A stretch of 64,000 nt of DNA from Streptomyces sp. CCM_MD2014 (GTDB lineage Bacteria; Actinomycetota; Actinomycetes; Streptomycetales; Streptomycetaceae). Position 1 is the stretch's first letter; each line of letters starts with the position of its first letter. The stretch is taken from NCBI RefSeq assembly GCF_000772045.1, contig NZ_CP009754.1:1-64000 (forward strand), written 5' to 3'. A program made the translations under genes and the position numbers. This document shows positions 4,218-17,686 of this stretch, piece by piece. The notes below the pieces were generated by a model that saw only the letters and a program-made list of their open reading frames with translations, made no database searches and was not told the origin of the DNA.

Positions 4218-4796
4218 TCAGGGACGCGGGGGTGGTGTGGTGAGGTACGGCGCGAGTTGGGCTTCAAGATCTGCGATGTGTTTGTCCAGGAAGCGGTTGT
4301 TCTGGCGGGCGCTGGCTAGACGCTCTTGGAGGCGCTGGTTGTCCTGGGTGAGTTGTCGTACGTGCTGCTTCAGCGTGGTGTTCTCGGTGACGATCCGTTG
4401 AAGTGAGCCTTCGGGGAGATCGTGTTCGAGGTCGCGGATCTTGCCGAGGAGTTCTGCGATGCGGGTGCGCTGGGTGCGGATTTCGCGCTGGGTCTGGGTG
4501 AGTGCGTCTTCGGCGTTGAGGGCGCGCTCCCTCCAGGCGGGGTGTGTGCGGCTGCGGCTGCTGGAGGTGCCGGATTGGGGTCTGCTTGTGCGGGTGACCT
4601 GTTCGATCAGGGCTCTGGCCTGCTGGTTTTGGTAGAGAAAAGTGCGTGAGACACGGGCGGTACGGGCGAGGGCTGCGACGGTGACAGGCGTATGGTCGCG
4701 GACTGCGGCCGCCAGGGCGGTTTGGAGGCGTTGAAGCATCTCTTGGGTGGCTTGGCGGCGGGCTCGGACGGCCGCGTCTGTGCGGGAAGTGCTCAT
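4218..4796 (-). CDS. TnpC-like coiled-coil partner of tyrosine recombinases (DUF6262 type)
   Basis: 192 residues with an N-terminal helix-turn-helix-like segment (about residues 30-60, TVAALARTARVSRTFLYQ) followed by a long coiled coil (about 85-180, rich in E/Q/R/L). This matches the third protein of Tn554-like site-specific recombination modules, thought to help the two recombinases. The ATG at 4796 overlaps the stop of the upstream recombinase gene in an ATGA arrangement, which fixes the start. It converges on the helicase gene, with about 47 nt between the stop codons. The frame is intact although both partner recombinases are broken. Confidence 0.75.
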   Translation of the reverse strand: MSTSRTDAAVRARRQATQEMLQRLQTALAAAVRDHTPVTVAALARTARVSRTFLYQNQQARALIEQVTRTSRPQSGTSSSRSRTHPAWRERALNAEDALTQTQREIRTQRTRIAELLGKIRDLEHDLPEGSLQRIVTENTTLKQHVRQLTQDNQRLQERLASARQNNRFLDKHIADLEAQLAPYLTTPPPRP

Positions 4797-7390
4797 GCCT
4801 GTCCTGTGGCGTCGTCGGGGGCCTTCAGTGATGCGAGATCGCGGGCGCGGAAAGCGGTGCTCCAGGTGCGGTGGAAGTAGTCCTGGGGGCGCCGCAGGTC
4901 GAGGGTGAGGGCTTCGTCGAGGATGCCGAGGGCGGCCAGGGCCTGCTCGAGTCCTTTGATGGCCTTGGCGGTGGGTTCGAAGACGGTGTGGAGGTAGTCG
5001 GCGGTGGCATCGTCGGGGGCGTTCTCGGCGATGGATCGCCACTGTTCGGCTTTGCGTCGCCAGTAGAGGAGGTCTGCGGCGGAGAGGACGAAGTTGTCGC
5101 AGTTCTCGCAGTCGAGTTTCCAGGGGCAGGATCCGCCGTCGACGACGGGTTGGTAGGTGCAGAATCCGCCGTCGGCGGGGGTGCTGCGGCGGGAGAGGTC
5201 CAGGGCCAGGGCCAGGGCTGTCTCGCGGTTGATGGGGGTGGTGTCGCAGGAGAGGAGTTTGCCTGGGTTGGGGCGCCGGGCCCGGCTACCCAGATGGTGT
5301 TCAGGACGTCTTCGAGGTCGCTGTTGGTGATCTTCACGTAGTGCTCGGCCATGCGTTCGGAGAGCTGGCCGAGGTAGCGGCGGATGTGGGTGAGTGTGGC
5401 GCCGGCGCGCAGCAGGTTGGTAGCGAGGGTGTGGCGGGCTTGGTGGGCGACGTAGGCGCCGCCGAGGTCGAGGTCGGCGATCCAGGTCTTGAAGCGCTGG
5501 TTGAAGTGTCCGTAGGAGATCGGCTGTCGGCCGTTGGGGTTGCGGATGCGGGAGGGGAACAGGGCCAGGCCGGGGCGTTCAGCGGCTGCTGGGGTGCGGC
5601 CGTAGCGTTTTTCGAAGAGCTGGAGTGTCTTGGTGCGGCGGGTATCGAGGCGCTGGTAGATGGGCTCGGGGATGCGGATGCCCTCGTTGTAGTTGCCGAC
5701 CTTGGTCTGGTCGTGCCACAGCATGGCCAGACCGCGGTAGCGGCCGATGCAGTCCAGCCGCAGTCCGACGACCTCGCTGCAGCGACGTCCGGTGGCGACG
5801 ATGGTCTCCCAGATGTCCCGCAGGCCACGGTCGTTGAGGTCGAGTTCCTCCAGGCGGCGCAGGTTTGTCTCGTCGGTCAGCGCGCGGGCGACGTCGTCGC
5901 TGAAGGGCTGCGGGAACGCTGCTTGAGGCCGGTGCCGCCGAAGGGGATGGCGGTCAGGAAGCCGGTGTCGATGCCGAGGCGTTCGGCGTGGCCGGCGGTG
6001 ATGGCGCTGTAGAGCAGCTTGCGGGCTTGGTTGAAGACGAATTGGCAGCTCAGGTCGGTGACGGTGGGGGATCGTCCGTCGACCAGGACCATGCCCAGGG
6101 GCGGCAGGCCGTGGCGGGCGCGGTGGCGCTGGTCGGCGACAAACCGCTCGGGTGCTCACGGCGCAGCACAGTGGGGTCGTGGCCGGCGTCGGGGGCGTCG
6201 GCTTGGAGGAAGGCGCCCAGTTCGACGGCGGCGCGGCGCATCTGGTCGAAGGGGCCTCTGGAGCGGGGGCACTGCGGGGGTCTGAGCCACTCGGCGAGGT
6301 GATCCAGAGCAGGTCACGCAGCCACCGCTGGGAAACGGCGGTGATGTCGAAGTTGCTCTGGGCGTTCTTGAAGCGTCGTCCGAAGTGATCGGTTTCCAGG
6401 AAGCCGGCGTCCTTGGTGTCTGAGGGGCTGTAGTAGACGCAGCGCAGGCCGTTGATGATCTCCCGGATGATCTTGCGGACTTCGGAGTCCATCTGCTTGC
6501 GGGTCAGGTCTTTGAAGTCGGCGTCGTGCAGGTCCATCAGGGACGTGATGCTGCCTCGCCAGCAGTATCTGACGAGATTCCTGATGCCGTTGGTGGTCCA
6601 TTCGGAGTGTTGTGCGGACTGGGCGTGGGCATGCAGGCCCCACTGGATCTCGGCCCGCAGCAGCGCGGGCAGGCAGTGGAGGTTGACCAGCCCTGGCTGC
6701 GTGACCGGCTCCGCAGTGGCGCACCAGGCGCGGAATGCCTTCTCGTCGCCGTAGGTCACCGGGAGCGGCTGGCCGTCCTTGAGGGGGCCGCGTAAGTTCT
6801 GCGACCGGGCTGCCCCCGGACGGTTGTCGATCTTGTACCGGTTCAGGTGTTGGAGGCACAGGCCCAGTGAGGTGCAGGCCAGGAAGGGGCAGCGTGCCTG
6901 GCACAGGCCGTAGCCGGGCAGTGGGTGCTGGGTGCTGGGTGCGGGCCCATTGCTCGAACTGGTCTCGGTCCATGTCGGCGGCCTCGCCGTACTGCCACCT
7001 GGTCTGGTGTTGCTGGCACAGCCGGGTGGTGGGGTTGATCGCCGGGCGGTCGGGGCAGATCAGGCACCGGCCGTAGTCCACTCCCCGCGCGGCGGGCAGG
7101 GCGGTGGCCGCGTCCATGAAGGCGCGCTTGGTCTGCCCCGTCTGTTCGGCCTGCTCCCACTCCAGGTTGTGTGTGTTGCACAGGTTGTGGCTGATCCGGC
7201 GGATGCGCTTGCAGCCGTCAATGGCGCACTGCCAGGCGTAGACCGGGTGCTGGGGCGGGATGAAGATCAGCGTGTCGCGAAAGAGCGGGTCGAATGCGGG
7301 GGCCTCGATGAGGGCTGTGAGCAGTTCGAGCCGGTCACGGCCGATGCGGGTGGTGTCGGTGCGGCCGGGCAGCAGCGTCAGCGGGATCAC
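4793..7390 (-). pseudogene. frameshifted tyrosine recombinase, TnpB type of a Tn554-like module
   Basis: Reading the frames in order gives one recombinase of about 860 residues. The N-terminal half has Cys/His pairs (for example CAIDGCKRI and CLICPDRP) suggesting zinc binding. The catalytic C-terminal domain has Arg in ATGRRCSEVVGLRL, an HQARH box, and Tyr in MAEHYVKI. The C-terminus has another Cys cluster (CPWKLDCENC). The coding frame changes near 6930, 6280, 6110, 5925 and 5275, so no full-length protein can be made. The GTG start at 7390 overlaps the stop of the upstream recombinase (GTGA) and the end overlaps tnpC (ATGA), the tight coupling expected of the family. The 6930 shift falls in a tandem 7-bp repeat. 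Real decay is likelier than base-calling error, because large neighbouring genes are intact. Confidence 0.8.
6922..6943. repeat. tandem 7-bp repeat at a frameshift site
   Basis: The unit GGGTGCT is repeated back to back (about three partial units) exactly where the TnpB-like frame changes. Gain of one 7-bp unit shifts the frame by one and would explain this lesion by replication slippage. Confidence 0.6.
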
Positions 7391-8564
7391 GGCCGTGTCC
7401 CCCACACCTGCTCCAGCGCCGCGGTGAAGACCGGGTCGTGGACGTCCACGTGGCCGTAGACCTGCTCGACGGTCGCGGCCGAGGCCCAGCCGCCGGCCTC
7501 CCGTGCGATCACCGCATTGCCCCGTGCGGCGTCCAGCACTGCGGTGGCGAAGCTGTGCCGGAAGGCGTGCGGTACCACCCGGCCGATCTGACCACGGGCT
7601 GCGGCCCGGCGCAGCATGCCCCGGGCCGCAGCGGTGGTCCACGGCTGGCCTCGGGAGGGGCCGTGCAGGCTGACCAGGAGCATTCCGTGAGCAGTCTGGG
7701 CGGGGTACTGGGTGGTGATGTACTCGAAGTAGGTGTGGATCATCGCCGGCTCGCCCGGCGCACCGTACCCCCGCACACGGCGTTGTCCTGCCAGGTCCAG
7801 GGCGTCTTGGTCTTGACCCGGGCCCGGTTGGTGTTGTCCTCGCGGTGGCAGAGGTGCACGTGCGGCCCCCGGCATTGACCGCACGCGGCTTGCTCCCGCA
7901 GGTGCAGATTGACCAGGCGCAGCCCGCACAGCTCGCCGATCCGGAACCCACCGTCGGCCAGCCACGTGACCACCATCCGGTCCCGCGCGCACGAGGCCGC
8001 CCCCAGCAACAGATCCCGGGCACCCTCGGGCAACATCTTCGGATGCCGACGCACCCGCTCCGCGGGAGCCAGAGGGTTCGCGGGCATGCTGTGCAGGACG
8101 TGTCCGAGCATCGCCCGCCGCCGGTCCGCCCGCGTCGGCAAACGGGTAACGCGCAGTGCCTCCGCCAGTGCCGGGTTCACGCCGCGGGTGCCCAGGTGGA
8201 GGTAGAAGCCCTTCAGGCAGGCCGCCGCGGTCTTCAACGTGCTGTGTCCGTAGGGGCGCTTGCCTTCCCGCCACGGCAGACCGAACGGCCCCGGGTAATC
8301 CGCCCCGAGGGCCGCCATGTAGTGCCGTAGGTCCTCAAGCGACACCGACTCTGTGTCCAGGCCCGCGAACCGCAGCCACCGCAGATGATCCACCAGCACA
8401 TACGCGTACGTCCGGTCCGTACCCGCCCGGCAGGTACGCAGGAACCCGTCCGCCTCCTCCACCACCGAGCAGTCCGCATCCACGACCGTGTAGCAGACCC
8501 GCCCGTCGGCACGGACGATCTCCTGCACTCGTAAGTCGCCCACCACCAGTCGGCTATCCATCAT
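7387..8564 (-). pseudogene. frameshifted tyrosine recombinase, TnpA type of a Tn554-like module
   Basis: First gene of the recombinase triad. The ATG at 8564 has a GGAGGGGG ribosome-binding site just upstream. The product has an N-terminal core-binding domain (about residues 50-140) and a tyrosine-recombinase catalytic domain: Arg in GGFRIGELCGLRL, the HAFRH box, and Tyr in VEQVYGHV. A single frame change near 7750, after CGGTVRRAS, separates most of the catalytic domain from the N-terminus, so the enzyme is inactive as it stands. The stop overlaps the next recombinase start by 4 nt. Such modules insert site-specifically without terminal repeats; I found no target duplication. Confidence 0.8.
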
Positions 8565-8744
8565 GTACCGCCCCCTCCGAACCGGGAACCACCCCGCCGG
8601 CGGCACCTTCCGGTCCCGAGTCCACACCCCTCCCCCACCCCCACGGACCACTCCACACGAACGTCCCACACACCCCGGCGACGGTTGGTAAAGTCCGTCA
8701 CCCTCACACGCCAGAACGCCGCAGGAGCAATTTCGCTGCCGACG

Positions 8745-9446
8745 TCAGCGAGGACAGGCGTGCCCCTCCGCCCGGTGCCCCATCCACACCGCCACGTCGC
8801 ACACCCGCAGCGCACTCACCGTCTCCGGCACCCCGGCGATCTTGCGCAGCGCGAGCAACTGGCGATGCAGGGCGCAGTCGTCCGCGCGCAGCTCGGCATG
8901 CAGCGCCAGCCAGAACGAGGGGCGCGGGCGGCCCAGAGCGCAGCGCACCACACGGTCGTAGACCGGCAACAACCGCGGACGCTTGCGAGCCAAGAGCTTG
9001 CCAGCGATGACCCTGTTAACTCCGCGCTGGGCGCAGAGGAGGTGCCAGGCCTGGTCCGCCGGCGAGCCCTCGACCAAGACGTCCGCTTCGGCGTCGACCA
9101 TGTCGATGTCCCTGGGAATGGCGTGCAGCAGACCGGACAGCCGCACGCCGAGAGGGCCCTCCAGAAGATCCAACGCGACAGACGCCGGAACGGTCACCGA
9201 CAACGTCTGCACCGCGACCAAGTCCTCCGCCGTGACCCGGTCGGCAACGTCCGGCCGGTCTCCCCCACCCGCCAGATGCTCGAACCGACTGCCGGTGAAC
9301 ACCACCGCGCCGGGCGGCAGGCCCATGCCGAAGTAATGCCGCAGGTCACCGACAACGCGCTCGGAACTCAGCAGTCCGTGCAGCCGCTGCCCCAACGGCG
9401 ACGACGCCCCACCAGATACACCGGGCGCAGCGGTAGGAGAGGCCAT
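8745..9446 (-). CDS. DUF6308 family protein
   Basis: 233 residues resembling the actinobacterial DUF6308 family: a conserved N-terminal segment (LRHYFGMGLPPGAVVFTGSR), a central helical region with a lysine-rich turn (VIAGKLLARKRPRLLPVYD), and a tail with RVCDVAVWMGHR. The biochemical function of the family is not established to my knowledge. The central helical part and 'K-L-x-A-R-K-R-P' turn recall helix-hairpin-helix glycosylase-like folds, but that is only an impression. The gene stands alone between the decayed recombinase module and the conflict operon, with about 215 nt of unassigned sequence downstream of the conflict NTPase. Confidence 0.65.
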   Translation of the reverse strand: MASPTAAPGVSGGASSPLGQRLHGLLSSERVVGDLRHYFGMGLPPGAVVFTGSRFEHLAGGGDRPDVADRVTAEDLVAVQTLSVTVPASVALDLLEGPLGVRLSGLLHAIPRDIDMVDAEADVLVEGSPADQAWHLLCAQRGVNRVIAGKLLARKRPRLLPVYDRVVRCALGRPRPSFWLALHAELRADDCALHRQLLALRKIAGVPETVSALRVCDVAVWMGHRAEGHACPR

Positions 9447-9660
9447 GAGAACTCCGTCCTTCGTCGAGCTCGTGAGCGGGTGAGCAGCGCCAGAAGGTCC
9501 TGCCCGAGAAGCATCTGGTCAACGCTCTGCCGCAGCCACACCGGAGTTCCTCCACCAGCTGATGGCGGCCGGTGCCCCTGCGTGACCCACCGACCGGCTC
9601 GCCACAAGGCTTGAGGGGGTTGTACATCGGCTTGAGAGTGCCGCTGGCGGCTGGTCGGCA

Positions 9661-12600
9661 TTACTCGTCGATGCGTTGAAGCTCGACAGCTTCTCGGTCG
9701 CCAGCGGCGGCGAGGCCGTCGACAACGCGGCGCCATCGGCTCAGAGCAGCGGTGCCAGGTAGCCCGGTTTCGCGGAGTTCGGTGAGCCAGCCGGTGACGT
9801 TCCAGCAGTGGTTGGCGAAGGCGTCATAGCGGCCGTCGATCACGTGTTCCAGCCATGGCAGGCCTGTCGCATACTGCCAGGTGGACGGGGTGGTGCGGGC
9901 GAAACGTGCCAACGTATCGGCGGCCTTGGCCTCGCCTCGGGCCCGGTCGAGCCATCGTTCGGTCGCGTCGCTGATGGCGCTGGGTGCGAGCCAGTCGCGG
10001 TTCGCGCGGTTGAGGGTGTCGTCGGGGTTGAGGTCGGAGGTGCGCAGTTGTGGAGTGGGAAGCAGTGCAGCAATGGCGTACTCAGCCCAGCGACTGTTGT
10101 CCGCTCGCAGGGTGGCGCCTGCGTCAAGAGCATCGAGCGTGGTGGTGAGGATCAGCGGCCACACTGCTGGGAGAAGTGCGCGAAGCGGGGCGTCGTAGGT
10201 AAAGAGGGTAGCGGCGTCGTGCAGTAGCTGTTGCAGGGCGTTGGCGTTGTCAGCGAACGTCCGCAAGTGCGTGGTGAGGGGTTCCGTACTGCCTGCGGCG
10301 GCGAGGGTGATGAGGGTGCGGACGACGAGTTCGCGCTCGGGGCTGTCGTATCCGGCGTAGCCCTCGGTCATCCAGTGGTCGGCGCCGTTGCGGTGCGCAT
10401 CCATCAGGATCGGGAGGAGGAGGGTGGCCTGTTCGGCCAGGCAGGTGGTACTGCGGGCGGCGGCTGTGCAGGCGATCGGCATGGCAAGCCGGTTCACGAG
10501 CAGGTCGGTGGCCGGAACGGCGGGCAGAGTGTCGGAGTAGGGGGGCGGCAGGAACTCCGGCTGACGGTTTCCTGACCGCCAGGGGCCGAGGCGACAGCCT
10601 CCGAGGCCTGCTTGGACGGCGGCCCACAGGGGCTGGTGGCGCCGGCAGGGTGTGTCCGTGTCCTTGTCCGCTTCGCAGGGGGACTCCCACACGGGGGCGC
10701 AGCCAGCGGCGAAGAGGGTGCGGATGCCGTCTGGCAGCGCGGCCAGGGCGATGGTGTTCTGTTCGATGCGGTCCTGCGCGATGCCGAGGTGATCGAACTG
10801 GGCGAGGAGGAGAGAGGGGAGGGCGCGGGCGGCTGAGCCGGAGGCAGCCATCGGATATACCCAGCTGTCGTCGTCCCTGCTGCCGGGGGGCGCGGTCGTA
10901 GGGGTGGTGAGGAGCCTGTCGGCGGCCCATAGCAGGTCGTCGTCGGGGACGACCGCGAGCCCGCGAGCGTGGCTGACGACGGCGGCGGCCGCGACGGCGG
11001 TCGGAGCGTCTTGCGGATGCAGGGTGCCGAACAAGGGTGGATCGGAGGCGACCTTCCGCGCGAGCGCAAGATCAGCGAGAAGCGCATCGGCCTGCCACTT
11101 TTCGGGCCAGTTGTCGTAGTCGCCGTAGGTGTGCTGCAGGCGCAGCGCTTCACTGCCGGCTGCGACCTGGGCGGCGAGCGGAGCGAACTGCTCGGCGACT
11201 TCCGCGGGAGGCGTGTACTGCAGGACGACCATGTCGTTAGTCCGGTAGGCGGGATGGTTTTCCGACCGCAGCAGTGACGCCCACCCCTGGACCCTGGTGA
11301 GTTGCCCGTCGGAGTTGTCGCCGGCTTCGGCTCGCGCGGTAGCAACCAGTCGGTCGGCGACCTCGGCCAAAGCGTCCAGCCGTGCCTGATCTCCTGCGAC
11401 CATGGCACGCTGAGTCAGATCAGCGGCAACTTCGCGCGGGGGCGTCGTGCGCCGGTCGGCACCGGCCACATCGTCCAGCGCCGGTCCCCGCACATGGAAG
11501 TGGCCCTCGGTAGTCGTCCTCGAGCTCTCCAGGCCCCACACTGCCGGCGAAGTGAGCCAGACATCCAGCAGATCCCCGGCGTCTTCGAGACGACGGACGA
11601 GCAGGCCGACGACCAGGCCGGCCATAGCGAGATTGTTGCAGCCGCGCAGCAGCAGACGCACGACCCTCTCGTAGGGCATACCCGCCGCGATAAGGCTGTC
11701 GGCAAGCTGCTCGACCGCCATCAAGGCGCTCATGCACGGGTAGGGGCCGACGGTCGAAGCGCGGTACCAGCCCCAGACATGGCTGTCGCCGACGAAGTGG
11801 CGAGGCCCGATGCCAGGGATGTCGAGGCTGATTCCCTCGAGCGGGGCATCCAGCTCGTCAAGGTTCGAGCTGAGCTGGTGGAGCGTGCGGACACGACGTT
11901 CCGCTGCATGGTCGAGCATCCGATTGATCATGTCGAGGGCGTCGCCGGGCAGGCTGTGCAGAAGCCAGTAGAACGGTCCGAAGTGCCAGGCGGCGAAGGG
12001 CGGGCCGAAGCCCGTGTGGCGGTGGCTGCGGATCCCCTCGTCGCGCAGTCCTCCGCCGCCCCAGCGGCTTCGCTTGGGCTGGTGGATGTAGTAGGCCTCG
12101 GTGAGGTCCAGGAGCAGTCGCGGATGAGTCCGGGCCATGAAGACGGCACCGAGCGACTCCACGGCGGCTGCCAGGTGGCTTGGGGCCTTGGCGGCTGTGT
12201 TCCGCAGCCACTGCTCGCTGGCTTCGTCGGTGTCGGGCCCCAGGGTGGCGAGTGCCTCGACCGCAAAGTCGTCGTAGCGTTCCGGGTGCGCGGCGAGGAC
12301 GCGATCGCGGACCTGCTGGCGCAGCGGGTCGGGCCCCTGGGTGTCGCGGGCCATGCCGCGCAGCCATGCCAGCACGAGTTCGCGGATAGTCTTGCCCATC
12401 CCCCGGGGGTATGCATCGTTCTGTCCCAAGTCACGGTCGGTGCAGTAGGTCAGGGCGACCACCGGTGCAAGGGTGAACGGGTCTGCGACGGTGCTGGTGA
12501 TGTAGCGCAGGTCGGCTAGGCGCAGCAGGGTTTTGAGGCCGCGGTGGTCATCGGCGGCGAGGTCGTCCCAGACGTTTTCGATCGCGGTCTGGGCGTTGCC

Positions 12601-13476
12601 GAGGGTGAGGAGTGCTTCCATCGGAACTTCCGTCCACCGCTCCCCCTCGTCCTCACCGAGCTGCCGGAATTCGCTGTGCAGTTCGCGCCAGGCGGCTGCT
12701 CGGTCCCCGGCGAGCAGCTTCGCCTGGCAGGCGAGTCGTACCGCGCGGATCGCCCAGCGGGGCGCTCCGGCCTTCCTCAAGGGCTCCCATCCTTCGATGA
12801 AGAACAGGCGACACAAGGCGAAGTCGCGCATTAGGTCGGTGGCGAACTCGTCGCCTGCGGCGAACGCGGGGTTGGCCGGGGGGCGCAGGACCGCGTCGGA
12901 TCGCAGTCGCGGCAGTGACGCACCAGCGGCGGGTGGGCTGTCCGGCAGCTTGAGCGCGCGGCGGGCAACGGCGAGGACGGCCTGTTCCCGCTCGTCCGGT
13001 GACGCGCCTCCGGGAAGGTACTCCTCGCCGTTTCGGACGAGTCCGTTCCAGACGGCGACGAACACATCGGCTTCGGACAGCAGCGTGCTGGTCTCAGTGA
13101 CGGTGCCGGCCCGCAGCAGGACATCGACCAGGCCCGGCCGACCGACCAGCCAATCGGCTCGCGTGTCGGCGCTGAAGCGGATCAAGGTGTGAAAGGTCTC
13201 GGCGAGCTGGCGACGCTCGTCGAGAGTGAGCCGTGATACGACGTGCTGGGCCACCGTTTCGGGGCGGTCAGCCTGCGTTGCGGCGGACTGCACAACCTCG
13301 CGCACCCGCGTGGCCCCGTCACTGCGGGTCACGGCAACCACTCCGAGCCCGGCCCTGAAAGCAGCAGTGGCGACGTCCCTCAGCAGATCACGGCGACCCT
13401 CCAGGACGGCTTCTGCACCATCGATCACGAGCAAACGAACCGCCCGGATCTCTCCCGCCGCGAACACATCCGTCAA
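9661..13476 (-). CDS. C-terminal fragment of the interrupted STAND NTPase (1,271 aa open frame)
   Basis: Open frame from just after IS copy A to the original stop. It begins at Walker B (LLVID near fragment residue 15) and lacks Walker A, so it cannot bind ATP normally. The rest is long, mostly alpha-helical by appearance, with many Trp and Leu residues and no enzyme motif I recognise. Any translation would depend on an internal TTG/GTG start or read-out from the IS; no good ribosome-binding site is seen. It is best annotated as part of the split gene. Confidence 0.75.
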   Translation of the reverse strand: MTDVFAAGEIRAVRLLVIDGAEAVLEGRRDLLRDVATAAFRAGLGVVAVTRSDGATRVREVVQSAATQADRPETVAQHVVSRLTLDERRQLAETFHTLIRFSADTRADWLVGRPGLVDVLLRAGTVTETSTLLSEADVFVAVWNGLVRNGEEYLPGGASPDEREQAVLAVARRALKLPDSPPAAGASLPRLRSDAVLRPPANPAFAAGDEFATDLMRDFALCRLFFIEGWEPLRKAGAPRWAIRAVRLACQAKLLAGDRAAAWRELHSEFRQLGEDEGERWTEVPMEALLTLGNAQTAIENVWDDLAADDHRGLKTLLRLADLRYITSTVADPFTLAPVVALTYCTDRDLGQNDAYPRGMGKTIRELVLAWLRGMARDTQGPDPLRQQVRDRVLAAHPERYDDFAVEALATLGPDTDEASEQWLRNTAAKAPSHLAAAVESLGAVFMARTHPRLLLDLTEAYYIHQPKRSRWGGGGLRDEGIRSHRHTGFGPPFAAWHFGPFYWLLHSLPGDALDMINRMLDHAAERRVRTLHQLSSNLDELDAPLEGISLDIPGIGPRHFVGDSHVWGWYRASTVGPYPCMSALMAVEQLADSLIAAGMPYERVVRLLLRGCNNLAMAGLVVGLLVRRLEDAGDLLDVWLTSPAVWGLESSRTTTEGHFHVRGPALDDVAGADRRTTPPREVAADLTQRAMVAGDQARLDALAEVADRLVATARAEAGDNSDGQLTRVQGWASLLRSENHPAYRTNDMVVLQYTPPAEVAEQFAPLAAQVAAGSEALRLQHTYGDYDNWPEKWQADALLADLALARKVASDPPLFGTLHPQDAPTAVAAAAVVSHARGLAVVPDDDLLWAADRLLTTPTTAPPGSRDDDSWVYPMAASGSAARALPSLLLAQFDHLGIAQDRIEQNTIALAALPDGIRTLFAAGCAPVWESPCEADKDTDTPCRRHQPLWAAVQAGLGGCRLGPWRSGNRQPEFLPPPYSDTLPAVPATDLLVNRLAMPIACTAAARSTTCLAEQATLLLPILMDAHRNGADHWMTEGYAGYDSPERELVVRTLITLAAAGSTEPLTTHLRTFADNANALQQLLHDAATLFTYDAPLRALLPAVWPLILTTTLDALDAGATLRADNSRWAEYAIAALLPTPQLRTSDLNPDDTLNRANRDWLAPSAISDATERWLDRARGEAKAADTLARFARTTPSTWQYATGLPWLEHVIDGRYDAFANHCWNVTGWLTELRETGLPGTAALSRWRRVVDGLAAAGDREAVELQRIDE

Positions 13477-13491
13477 CGGGCGCCCGCCTAA

Positions 13492-14375
13492 CTGGCTCTA
13501 ACAAAAGCTGCTGATCATGAGACTGTCGGCCTCTCCGCTCGTAGGTCTGGGCATGGGAAACCGTCAGTCGCGGCCGTGGATCGTGTCGGATGAACTGTGG
13601 TCGCTGGTCGAGCCGTTGCTGCCGACGCCAGGTCCGAAGAAGGTCCAGGGCAGACCGCGGGTGCCGGACCGGCAGGCCCTGTGCGGAATCCTCTTCGTCC
13701 TGCACACCGGCATCCAGTGGGAGTACCTCCCTCAGGAACTCGGCTTCGGCTCGGGCATGACCTGCTGGCGGCGCCTTGCGTCCTGGAACGAGGCCGGCGT
13801 CTGGGACCAGCTCCACCAGCTGCTGCTGAACGAGCTGCGGTCGAAGGACCGGCTGGACTGGGAACGGGCGGTGATCGACTCCTCGCACGTGCGGGCTGCC
13901 CGACGGGGCCCAAAAGCGGACCGAGCCCGGTCGACCGCGCACGGCCGGGCAGCAAGCACCACCTCATCGTCGATGGTCAGGGCATCCCGCTCGCGGTATC
14001 GCTGACCGGCGGCAACCGCAATGACGTCACCCAGCTGCTGCCCCTCCTCGACAAGATCCCGCCCGTCGCGGGCCGGGTCGGCAGGCCCCGCCGGCGGCCG
14101 GACGCTCTGCTGGCCGACCGCGGCTACGACCACGACATCTACCGCCGCCAGCTCTGGCAGCGCGGCATCCGGCCCGTGATCGCCAGACGGGGCGAGCCAC
14201 ACGGCACCGGCCTGGGCATCTTCCGCTACGTCGTCGAGCGCACGATCGCCTGGCTCCACGGCTTCCGCCGCCTACGCATCCGCTGGGAACGACGCGACGA
14301 CATCCACGAAGCATTCCTCGGCCTCGCCACCTGCCTGATCACCCACCGCCACGTCCAACGCCTTTGTTAGGACCT
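13492..14375 (+). mobile_element. IS5-family (IS427-group-like) element, copy A, 884 bp
   Basis: Ends are imperfect inverted repeats: left CTGGCTCTAACAAAAGC, and right, read inward, AGGTCCTAACAAAGGC. They are flanked by a direct 4-bp CTAA (13488-13491 and 14376-14379). The element carries a two-frame transposase. Its translated frames are the same as those of copy B at 15030-15913, so at least one transposition is recent. The CTAA target resembles the (C)TA(G) target of the IS427 group. In both copies CTAA has the same orientation relative to the transposase. Confidence 0.9.
13553..14370 (+). CDS. IS5-family transposase, copy A, made by programmed -1 frameshift
   Basis: The DDE transposase is encoded in two overlapping frames. 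The first (from ATG 13553, MGNRQSRPW, ending at 14005) gives the N-terminal DUF4096-type domain and the first catalytic Asp (AVIDSSHV). The second frame (ending at 14370) gives the remaining catalytic part (ALLADRGYD, YVVERTIAWLHG). A canonical -1 slippery heptamer C CCA AAA lies at 13909-13915 in the overlap, and slipping there fuses the frames cleanly. This is the usual expression mode in this IS group. The element looks functional. Other in-frame starts (13517) are possible. Confidence 0.88.
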
Positions 14376-15025
14376 CTAAGAGGTGTTGGACCTGCACTAC
14401 CGATTCGGGAAGGTCACGCAGGCTCAAGCAGGCCACTGCCGCGCCGTGTTCGGTGAGCTGCTGTGCGGTTCGGATCGTCAGAGCGGACTTCCCGACGTCG
14501 GGCTCCCCCGTTACCACCAGGCCCGAACCCGCCCGGCCGGTCTGATCCATCAAAACGGCGAGCCGCGCCCGCTCCTCGGTCCGGTCGAGTTCCAGCCTCA
14601 CTTCGCCAGCCTGCAAATCCGGGCGGGTCCCCTCCCGGAGGCGATCCGCCATACCGTCCAGCATCGACCAGGCCTGCTGGTAGGAAAGGGTCCGGACCAG
14701 CGGGAAGCCGCTGAGTTCACGGCGCACCATCGTCCGGTCCAGGTCCGCGGCAGACGAAGCCCAGGCACCGGAGCGCTCCGCAAGGTGAGCGAAGACGCCG
14801 TCAGCCGCTGCCGTCGCTTCGTCAGCAACGATGCGCCGCAGCGCGGAGACGGCCGTGCTCCGGTCGGACTCATCCACGCCCTCCAATCGCATCTGCCGTA
14901 CCCGCAACGCCATCAGCCAGCGCCACGTCAGCTCCTCGGCATCAACCTGCGACAAATCGTCCTGGTCCTTGACGGCAGCAACGACCAGGGCATCCAGATG
15001 CTTGAGACGTGTCCGCACGGCGGCC
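14376..15025 (-). pseudogene. middle fragment of the STAND NTPase, between the two IS copies
   Basis: About 215 codons reading in the same direction as the other two pieces. It carries the linker helices and the Walker A loop (GEPDVGKSA) and stops at the CTAA/TTAG duplication of IS copy A. It reads through into IS sequence on the 3' side, adding meaningless residues. It is not inverted relative to the flanking pieces, so recombination between the two IS copies has not flipped it. Confidence 0.8.
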
Positions 15026-15029
15026 TTAG

Positions 15030-15913
15030 AGGTCCTAACAAAGGCGTTGGACGTGGCGGTGGGTGATCAGGCAGGTGGCGAGGCCGAGGAATGCTTCGTG
15101 GATGTCGTCGCGTCGTTCCCAGCGGATGCGTAGGCGGCGGAAGCCGTGGAGCCAGGCGATCGTGCGCTCGACGACGTAGCGGAAGATGCCCAGGCCGGTG
15201 CCGTGTGGCTCGCCCCGTCTGGCGATCACGGGCCGGATGCCGCGCTGCCAGAGCTGGCGGCGGTAGATGTCGTGGTCGTAGCCGCGGTCGGCCAGCAGAG
15301 CGTCCGGCCGCCGGCGGGGCCTGCCGACCCGGCCCGCGACGGGCGGGATCTTGTCGAGGAGGGGCAGCAGCTGGGTGACGTCATTGCGGTTGCCGCCGGT
15401 CAGCGATACCGCGAGCGGGATGCCCTGACCATCGACGATGAGGTGGTGCTTGCTGCCCGGCCGTGCGCGGTCGACCGGGCTCGGTCCGCTTTTGGGCCCC
15501 GTCGGGCAGCCCGCACGTGCGAGGAGTCGATCACCGCCCGTTCCCAGTCCAGCCGGTCCTTCGACCGCAGCTCGTTCAGCAGCAGCTGGTGGAGCTGGTC
15601 CCAGACGCCGGCCTCGTTCCAGGACGCAAGGCGCCGCCAGCAGGTCATGCCCGAGCCGAAGCCGAGTTCCTGAGGGAGGTACTCCCACTGGATGCCGGTG
15701 TGCAGGACGAAGAGGATTCCGCACAGGGCCTGCCGGTCCGGCACCCGCGGTCTGCCCTGGACCTTCTTCGGACCTGGCGTCGGCAGCAACGGCTCGACCA
15801 GCGACCACAGTTCATCCGACACGATCCACGGCCGCGACTGACGGTTTCCCATGCCCAGACCTACGAGCGGAGAGGCCGACAGTCTCATGATCAGCAGCTT
15901 TTGTTAGAGCCAG
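15030..15913 (-). mobile_element. IS5-family (IS427-group-like) element, copy B, 884 bp
   Basis: Inverted copy of the element at 13492-14375, same length and same encoded proteins, flanked by TTAG at 15026-15029 and 15914-15917 (CTAA on the minus strand). It interrupts the NTPase gene between codons for Ala157 and the following Lys. Excision with one CTAA restores GCT-AAG-GCC in frame. Confidence 0.9.
15035..15852 (-). CDS. IS5-family transposase, copy B, programmed -1 frameshift
   Basis: Same two-frame transposase as copy A, on the opposite strand, with the slippery heptamer at 15496-15490. N-terminal frame runs from ATG 15852 to 15400 and the catalytic frame ends at 15035. All visible catalytic blocks (AVIDSSHV, LLADRGYD, VVERTIAW) are present, so the copy should be active. 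Confidence 0.88.
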
Positions 15914-16386
15914 TTAGCCGCCCCGGGACGCTGCACAGCAGTGCGAAATCCGGCAGCAGAGGACACGGACCGCGCGATCCGGGCCAGCGCGTCGGTCTGC
16001 TGCACAGCCGTACTGGAGACGCCGACCGCGAGCGCCACCCGCCAGCGACCGGCCGCCACCTCATCCCAGTGTCCGGTAACCACCCGCAGGAAAGACCGCA
16101 CCAGCGGGACCGACTTCTCATCGCTCGTGGTCAGGCTGGGATCCCGGCGTACCCCGATCGACACCCGCCGCACGAGGCCGTCACGGGTGCTCCCCTCCAC
16201 TACGACGTCGTCGATCGGGCTGATGTAGCTGGCCTGAAGACGTACAGAATGCGGGACGACATCGTCACCGAGCTCGCTAATCGGATCCTCGGTCAGCAGG
16301 GCGGCAGCCAGCGTCGCCGCGTAACGGTGTTCGATCCAGACACCGCCCCCACCAGTGGAGTACGGAGAAGAGGCATCAGTCGTCAT
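15914..16386 (-). pseudogene. N-terminal fragment of the STAND NTPase
   Basis: About 157 codons from the true ATG, which overlaps the caspase stop. It forms a small N-terminal domain (about residues 15-140) with beta-rich character (VWIEHRYAATLAAALL, SVRLQASYISPIDDVVVEG) that I cannot name; N-terminal domains of such NTPases often link to the effector. Translation ends at a TAA inside the left end of IS copy B. Confidence 0.75.
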
Positions 16387-17321
16387 CGGCACGCCTGCCA
16401 GCTTACGAGCAGGCACTGACACCCCGACCGGCCGGCAGAACGCTCGCCGACTGCCCGGTGGGTCAGGCCGCTGATCACCCGGACGTCTGCAAGGGCGGTG
16501 AAGAAGCCCGTGACGGTGCGGACGGACCGCGGATCCGGCCATGGTCGCTCACCGGTCACGGTGCCGAATGCAAGAACGGCCGGGGAAGCGGGTAGGGCTG
16601 CGTGGTTGCGTCCAAGTGCCAGCCGGGCACCGCTGTTGCGGTCCCTGGCCTGCGGGACGGGATGTCCCCTCGCTTCCAGGGTGCGGCGCAGATGCTGGTA
16701 GAGGGCCGCGAGATCGAGCAGGGCCGGACCGCCCGGAATGCCGTGGTGCAGGGTGTCGAGCAGTGCGCCGGTGAAGGCGGTGCAGGTGTCCCCGACCGGC
16801 GCCAGGGCGGTCCGGGTCTCTGCGGCGGCCGCCAGGAGGAAGCTGCCCTCCACCGCGGCCTGGTCAGCGAGCCCGGGTGAGGCGCTCATCCTCCCCGGAG
16901 CCAGGCCGCTGCAGCAGCAGTCCAGAATCACGACGTGCCGCTCGGCACGGGAGTCAAGGAGGAGAACCTGGCGCAGCCAGTCATAGGGCAGGCTGGTCTC
17001 GATGCGCCCGTACTCGGTGTCCGGCAAGGCCAGGCTGAGCGCGTCCGCATCGACCGAGCCGTGCCCGGCAAAGTAGACGATCAATGTGTCGGTGGCTTCG
17101 GCAGCCGCCTGCCTCACTGCCCCCACCGCGCTCTGCCCGGCGGCCGGGCTCTCGACGACGCGGACATTCTGGGCGGGCAGGTGCAGGGACACCGGGCTGG
17201 TCAGGAGGCCGGCGAGGGCCCGTAGATTGTTCGAGACCGCCGGCAACTGCTCGAGGTGCCGGTAGCGGCTCGTGCCGATCAGGACCGCGCGCGACGCTCC
17301 CGGGTCGGGCAGCACACTCAC
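16383..17321 (-). CDS. caspase-fold (C14) protease of an EACC1 conflict operon
   Basis: 312-residue caspase-like cysteine protease. The catalytic His is in IVYFAGHGSVD (His87), and the catalytic Cys is in VILDCCCSG (residues 131-139, probably Cys136). Upstream strands (AVLIGTSRY near residue 12) match the start of the p20 fold. The C-terminal 60 residues beyond the caspase core are unassigned. The GTG start at 17321 overlaps the EACC1 stop (GTGA) and the stop overlaps the NTPase start (ATGA), so all three proteins are translationally coupled. In bacterial conflict systems such caspases are killing or maturation effectors released by the NTPase; that role here is inferred from context. The gene itself is intact, though its NTPase partner is broken. 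Confidence 0.88.
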   Translation of the reverse strand: MSVLPDPGASRAVLIGTSRYRHLEQLPAVSNNLRALAGLLTSPVSLHLPAQNVRVVESPAAGQSAVGAVRQAAAEATDTLIVYFAGHGSVDADALSLALPDTEYGRIETSLPYDWLRQVLLLDSRAERHVVILDCCCSGLAPGRMSASPGLADQAAVEGSFLLAAAAETRTALAPVGDTCTAFTGALLDTLHHGIPGGPALLDLAALYQHLRRTLEARGHPVPQARDRNSGARLALGRNHAALPASPAVLAFGTVTGERPWPDPRSVRTVTGFFTALADVRVISGLTHRAVGERSAGRSGCQCLLVSWQACR

Positions 17322-17686
17322 CGGCCTGCCTCCCCGTCGCCGTCGAGGTGGTCAAGTGCCCGCGTCGCCTGCTGGATCTCCTGTTCGGAACAGTCGGTGA
17401 GAACGATGACCGTGTCCCCGCGGCGAATCTCCACCCGCGGCCGCTGCGGGCGCGTCTGCCGCCACGCCGCCACCGCCAGCACGAACGATGCCGCACTCCA
17501 CCCATTGCCCGTCACCAACTGCAGGACATCAAGCGCCGTGCCCATGTCTCCCGGACCGGGGACACCGCCCCGCACGTATGCCGTCGCCGACCGGCGCGCC
17601 TCGGGATCCGCACGCAACCAGCCTTGCAGTGAACGCAGTTCCCCCGCAGACGGATCGACCCGCACCTCTAGCAGCACTGCGCCCAC
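17318..17686 (-). CDS. EACC1 family small protein (effector-associated constant component 1)
   Basis: 122 residues matching the EACC1 pattern: an N-terminal strand (VLLEVRVD), a conserved SLQGWLRAD helix, the PGPGDMG turn near residue 45, a hydrophobic GWSAASFVLAVAAW helix near residues 62-76, then a strand (VEIRRGDTVIVLT) and a final helix. EACC1 proteins were described by comparative genomics as constant partners of variable effectors in NTP-dependent conflict systems of multicellular bacteria; their biochemistry is unknown. It is the first gene of the operon (GTG start, GGGAG upstream) and overlaps the caspase start by 4 nt. It is a strong marker for the type of system. Confidence 0.8.
   Translation of the reverse strand: MGAVLLEVRVDPSAGELRSLQGWLRADPEARRSATAYVRGGVPGPGDMGTALDVLQLVTGNGWSAASFVLAVAAWRQTRPQRPRVEIRRGDTVIVLTDCSEQEIQQATRALDHLDGDGEAGR

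Follow-up and report, generated by a model that had tools for sequence, protein, structure and literature searches.

EACC1-associated caspases have been published as a two-gene system (System 4) in which a variable domain is fused to the caspase, and in the account of that system in PMC7159879, STAND NTPases appear as such fused domains and not as a separate gene. At the level of the whole chromosome, replacement of chromosomal arms has been documented in Streptomyces (in parts of PMC5869714 and PMC8627663). Here we describe a locus near the left chromosome end of Streptomyces sp. CCM_MD2014, contained in bases 1-64000 (the window, that is, the whole stretch of DNA analyzed) of the 8,274,043-bp contig NZ_CP009754.1. 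On the minus strand, an EACC1 gene and a caspase gene are followed by a large NTPase gene that runs from an ATG at 16386 to 9661 and is cut into three pieces, N, M, and C, by two identical, oppositely oriented copies (A and B) of an IS5-family insertion sequence (IS). We regard this as most probably a recent gene loss of an ordinary kind and not as an on/off switch.

The IS copies lie in inverted arms of 896 nt that are 100% complementary (13485-14380 and 15025-15920). N, M, and C are all in the same codon phase, and the gene is lengthened by 888 (3 x 296) nt with each insertion. By arithmetic only, as the pieces were never joined, 6726 nt less 1776 nt leaves 4950 nt, or 1650 codons including the stop. 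A search for an uninterrupted homologue, which the first-pass annotation of this DNA had proposed, returned P0001, a natural uninterrupted NTPase of exactly 1649 aa from another assembly (8,220,879-bp contig; cluster of 19 sequences). The pieces are collinear with it, N matching residues 1-155, M matching 161-372, and C matching 379-1649. Of the 1638 residues compared, 8 differ, and P0001 is probably from a sister strain. The annotation had read the locus as one gene hit twice in opposite orientation, with a frame of 1,649 codons restored in frame at both junctions, and the codon phase, the length of the insertions, and the size of P0001 agree with this. It had also called the insertions recent; the identity of the two IS copies supports this view, and on the same grounds, we rejected old insertions. 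Read in place, the NTPase frame ends within IS copy B after 160 codons, and each IS copy contributes four in-phase stops; the locus probably yields no working NTPase.

A wider comparison gave the same picture. A total of 365 homologues of the NTPase were found, and the 120 of them that were listed were compared; N, M, and C follow each other in the same order in 114 of these 120. Among the remaining six, P0007, P0021, and P0048 have no N match, while P0030, P0038, and P0108 match C only. An inverted or absent middle piece, which together with divergence between the IS copies had been named beforehand as evidence that would speak against the annotation's reading, was therefore rejected, and no such divergence was seen. 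Among the 11 best-scoring distant loci, N-M-C collinearity was found in 5, whereas 5 share N and about half of M only, and the remaining locus has half of M together with C. A module exchange may have taken place between L041, L043, L044, L050, and L051 and locus L042, which has the other half of M plus C, with the border at approximately residues 105 to 120 of M. Just over half of the compared homologues (61 of 120) measure 1740 to 1830 aa, and the extra N-terminal part gave weak winged-helix matches in the two proteins of this size that were scanned against Pfam. In two relatives, the frames do not agree: in Kutzneria (L055:8907-9979), N matches in a different frame from M and C, and in a Streptomyces milbemycinicus fragment (L056:2-1382), the C match is spread over three frames. 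These relatives may have decayed independently, or their sequences may contain errors. A plasmid search with the C piece returned zero matches.

With regard to its identity, the NTPase shows the features of a STAND-type protein, with a Walker A motif (GEPDVGKS) in M and a Walker-B-like motif (LLVIDGAEAV) at the start of C, and residues P333, V335, G336, K337, D397, and G398 are invariant in 30 aligned homologues. Its AAA_16 match falls below the cut-off for that model. The C-terminal part has the sensor fold of Avs4 (AVAST type 4 STAND NTPase, PDB 8dgf), which is among the closest described systems. The PADLOC Avs4 model was matched only in part (P0001, E 2e-6 over 713-858 of 1570), and other homologues of the NTPase match the candidate PDC-M54A, not PADLOC Avs4. 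A Foldseek search with the N domain, where Avs proteins would have a nuclease effector, gave no match at E 0.001. The gene is predicted to encode an Avs4-like STAND NTPase that senses phage infection. Among the papers listed on Streptomyces anti-phage STAND/Avs proteins and insertion sequences, no title or opening of an abstract concerned this locus. On the inactivation of defense systems by insertion sequences, the literature found consisted of a review of microbial defenses and a paper on piRNAs.

The genome carries five identical full copies of the IS, namely, A, B, and those at 111403-112290, 8247731-8248618, and 8266903-8267790; the copies at 111403 and 8247731 look intergenic in the open reading frame (ORF) lists. 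Both transposase frames match NF033580 (IS5), with 117.5 and 127.4 bits against a cut-off of 110, and they cover complementary halves of the model. Relative to ORF1, ORF2 is shifted to the -1 frame. The heptamer C-CCA-AAA is found in ORF1 phase within the overlap, and from this, a -1 frameshift in the transposase is predicted. Similar elements are known from Streptomyces, those on Streptomyces plasmids reaching 93.9% identity, but the left end of the element described here is unlike that of three of five compared relatives. The first-pass annotation had given an 884-bp element with CTAA on each side. TAA flanks both sides of four copies in this genome and of five relatives, and a C does precede TAA in all four readable left flanks of this genome; however, the preceding base is c, c, g, a, and c in the five relatives, which are 83 to 86% identical. 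Because this base varies, the duplicated target looks like a 3-bp TAA, which would make the element 885 bp long. CTAA was accordingly rejected as the sole definition of the target, and sites were counted under both definitions. Site A (13489-13491) coincides with a TTA leucine codon of the NTPase gene. TTA codons are rare and bldA dependent in Streptomyces; since they contain the target of a TAA-targeting IS, such an element would tend to strike TTA-carrying genes.

The neighborhood upstream of the NTPase resembles System 4 in that EACC1 and an EACC1-associated caspase are adjacent, here at both chromosome ends, and it differs from the system as presented in PMC7159879 in that both caspases are clipped at their 3' ends and an NTPase outside the published system adjoins. 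The EACC1 gene lies 5' of the caspase gene, as in the two-gene arrangement, and the two products match PF19953 (90.9 bits; cut-off, 23.6) and NF047832 caspase_w_EACC1 (230 bits; cut-off, 140), respectively. Both had been described as intact. This holds for EACC1, which is whole by its Pfam match, but not for the caspase, the homology of which reaches only approximately residue 298 to 300 of homologues of about 384 aa; at least 60 further residues are present in 106 of 107 compared caspase homologues (among 120 matches listed). The caspase end falls inside an HTH_31-like stretch (277-337), itself just below the cut-off, and no variable C-terminal part is fused to it. Homology to the NTPase leader of relatives begins at 16425. 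From these two borders, we read the neighborhood as a join of two modules, a separate EACC1-caspase module having probably been joined to the NTPase at about 16421-16425 and the caspase clipped thereby.

Comparison with other genomes points in the same direction. Caspase matches occur in 88 of 295 genomes of the genus. We fetched 10 of the 11 best-scoring other caspase loci, leaving out G006, which has internal stops. EACC1 adjoins the caspase in all 10, and none of these loci (9 to 13 kb each) has a match to N, M, or C near the pair. Conversely, neither EACC1 nor the caspase was found upstream of the four close NTPase relatives (L052-L055; L056, a 3.4-kb fragment, was excluded) or matched in any of the 11 distant NTPase loci. 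The proposal that the NTPase acts as the sensor of the caspase system, made in the first-pass annotation, is therefore not supported, either by these loci or by the two-gene form in which PMC7159879 presents the system.

The IS also marks a border of the chromosome end, as the terminal inverted repeat extends inward as far as the inner end of IS copy A (Table 1). The two copies of this repeat are identical over 8510-14376; all 14 differences between them, 12 of which are single-base indels, fall in 7232-8509, corresponding to the final 1.3 kb on the right of the contig, and look like sequencing error. Compared with the left end, the contig lacks 7.2 kb on the right. Between the NTPase gene and the left chromosome end, at 4218-8669, there are ORFs that resemble a set of tyrosine recombinases, and the right contig end stops inside the same stretch. 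On the right arm (L003:10309-11900; chromosome 8265352-8266943), a second, different EACC1 gene is followed by a caspase gene that the same IS interrupts some 34 codons short of its expected end, this end having been taken from P0122 (393 aa, 57% identical), its only nearly full-length homologue that carries no other fused domains. The order at the right end is thus caspase fragment, IS, and duplicated NTPase C piece. We infer that copy A recombined with the IS in the right-arm caspase gene, with the left end replacing the right. This is similar to the arm replacement treated in parts of PMC5869714, where a sequence duplicated on both arms likewise serves for the crossover and the region beyond it joins the terminal repeat; in that work, the homology is provided by duplicated genes and the breaks were induced, whereas here IS homology would have served in a natural event.

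Table 1. Positions of the features of the left-end locus in the window
Feature	Coordinates	Strand	Remarks
Terminal inverted repeat	7226..14382		Recurs inverted at 8274043-8266897
NTPase piece C	9661..13488	-	Walker-B-like motif, Avs4-like C-terminal part; second copy in right-end repeat
IS copy A	13492..14376	+	885 bp if the target is TAA; apparent TAA duplicates at 13489-13491 and 14377-14379; inner boundary of terminal inverted repeat
Copy A transposase ORF1	13517..14005	+	First half of IS5 model
Copy A transposase ORF2	13597..14370	+	-1 frame; second half of IS5 model
NTPase piece M	14380..15025	-	Native orientation; P-loop GEPDVGKS
IS copy B	15029..15913	-	885 bp if the target is TAA; apparent TTA duplicates at 15026-15028 and 15914-15916
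Copy B transposase ORF2	15035..15808	-	From ORF listing
Copy B transposase ORF1	15400..15888	-	From ORF listing
NTPase piece N	15917..16386	-	Begins with the start codon at 16386; compared over residues 1-155 of P0001
Caspase gene	16383..17321	-	312 aa; last 84 residues of 384-aa homologues absent
Caspase/NTPase-leader join	16421..16425		Caspase homology stops and NTPase-leader homology starts
EACC1 gene	17318..17686	-	PF19953 match

Taken together, we consider it likely that the locus reflects neutral subtelomeric decay of an Avs4-like gene by two IS insertions, combined with an IS-mediated exchange of chromosome ends and a caspase-NTPase join. The IS5-family element would have inserted neutrally at two TAA sites of the gene near the left chromosome end, the right end would have been replaced by the left through recombination of copy A with an IS in the caspase gene of the right arm, and a separate EACC1-caspase module would have been brought beside the NTPase by the join that clipped the caspase. 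It is unlikely that the damage was instead selected, conflict systems at chromosome ends being costly and insertions and joins that break them being favored. The first-pass annotation had suggested either selection against an active caspase system, through autoimmunity or cost, or a reversible switch, since the NTPase gene was hit twice while EACC1 and the caspase were spared; however, there are 0 TAA/TTA sites in EACC1 (369 bp) and 0 in the homologous part of the caspase (900 bp), compared with 11 in the NTPase gene including the two occupied ones (CTAA counts, 0, 0, and 5, respectively). The sparing of these genes is therefore uninformative, and the caspase is in any case truncated. The distribution of IS sites was evaluated over 124 kb at the left end plus the 52 kb proper to the right arm, with 197 TAA/TTA and 38 CTAA sites. 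The probability that at least 2 of the 5 IS hits fall in the NTPase gene is 0.026 with TAA/TTA and 0.12 with CTAA, and the probability that at least 3 of 5 fall in the NTPase gene plus the right EACC1-caspase locus is 0.002 and 0.02, respectively, all of these being post hoc values. They presuppose an insertion as the origin of the right-arm junction and take no account of local hopping, which can put B beside A. The latter pair of values weighs against neutral decay and in favor of selection, as do the loss of the 3' end from both caspases of the genome and one of the changes on the window side, which strikes a glycine that 117 of 120 homologues retain. In addition, each of the two EACC1 loci in the genome lies next to a gene that this IS has interrupted. 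On the other hand, a second hit in an already dead gene should bring no gain, joint action of the NTPase with the caspase is not supported, and the window side has not changed at a higher rate: among the 8 differences from P0001, 3 arose there, 4 arose on the sister side, and 1 is unclear. Selection is thus possible but unproven, the evidence being weak and confounded.

Our reading as a whole is further weakened by several points: the right-arm insertion and the 34 missing codons depend on the single homologue P0122, the junctions come from one assembly, and the second-look list of folds for the N domain includes some non-nuclease entries. In this regard, a misjoining of IS repeats during assembly, at least at the right-end junction, has to be weighed, and the shortness of the right contig end and the clustering of all repeat differences in its last stretch would fit such an artifact. 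We regard it as very unlikely, as the assembly is a single 8.27-Mb contig, both intragenic copies have unique flanks with matching target duplicates, and the gene pieces are collinear with an independent protein. Even less credible is a reversible switch, in which precise IS excision, or flipping of M between the inverted copies, toggles the gene. Each insertion has a length in nt that is divisible by 3 and is bordered by short target duplicates, identical inverted copies do flank the P-loop piece, and the empty-site form exists as P0001 in another assembly. However, two precise excisions would be needed, and DDE elements of the IS5-like kind rarely excise precisely; flipping would keep both copies in place, and M is in its native orientation here; and P0001, given its differences at 8 residues, is probably from another strain. 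A broader idea, which we regard as rather doubtful, is that chromosome ends shuffle immune modules, with a clipped EACC1-caspase pair welded to an Avs4-like leader on the left and a cut second pair set before the Avs4-like sensor half by IS-to-IS arm replacement on the right, so that one IS family would break, duplicate, and recombine conflict genes, with effector ends being clipped off and the EACC1-protease cores kept.

In summary, the gene carries a genuine double insertion that is both recent and clean. It amounts to an ordinary IS knockout of an immune gene in the subtelomeric region, and its link to end exchange is instructive. The locus provides a clean and recent snapshot of the loss of an immune sensor at a chromosome end while relatives keep intact forms, and it is a natural case in which an IS defines the boundary of a terminal inverted repeat. 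Since the adjacency of EACC1, caspase, and NTPase genes appears to stem from a recombination join, such neighbors should not be taken as one system. Finally, this work highlights an Avs4-like family in actinobacteria as a candidate for phage sensing.

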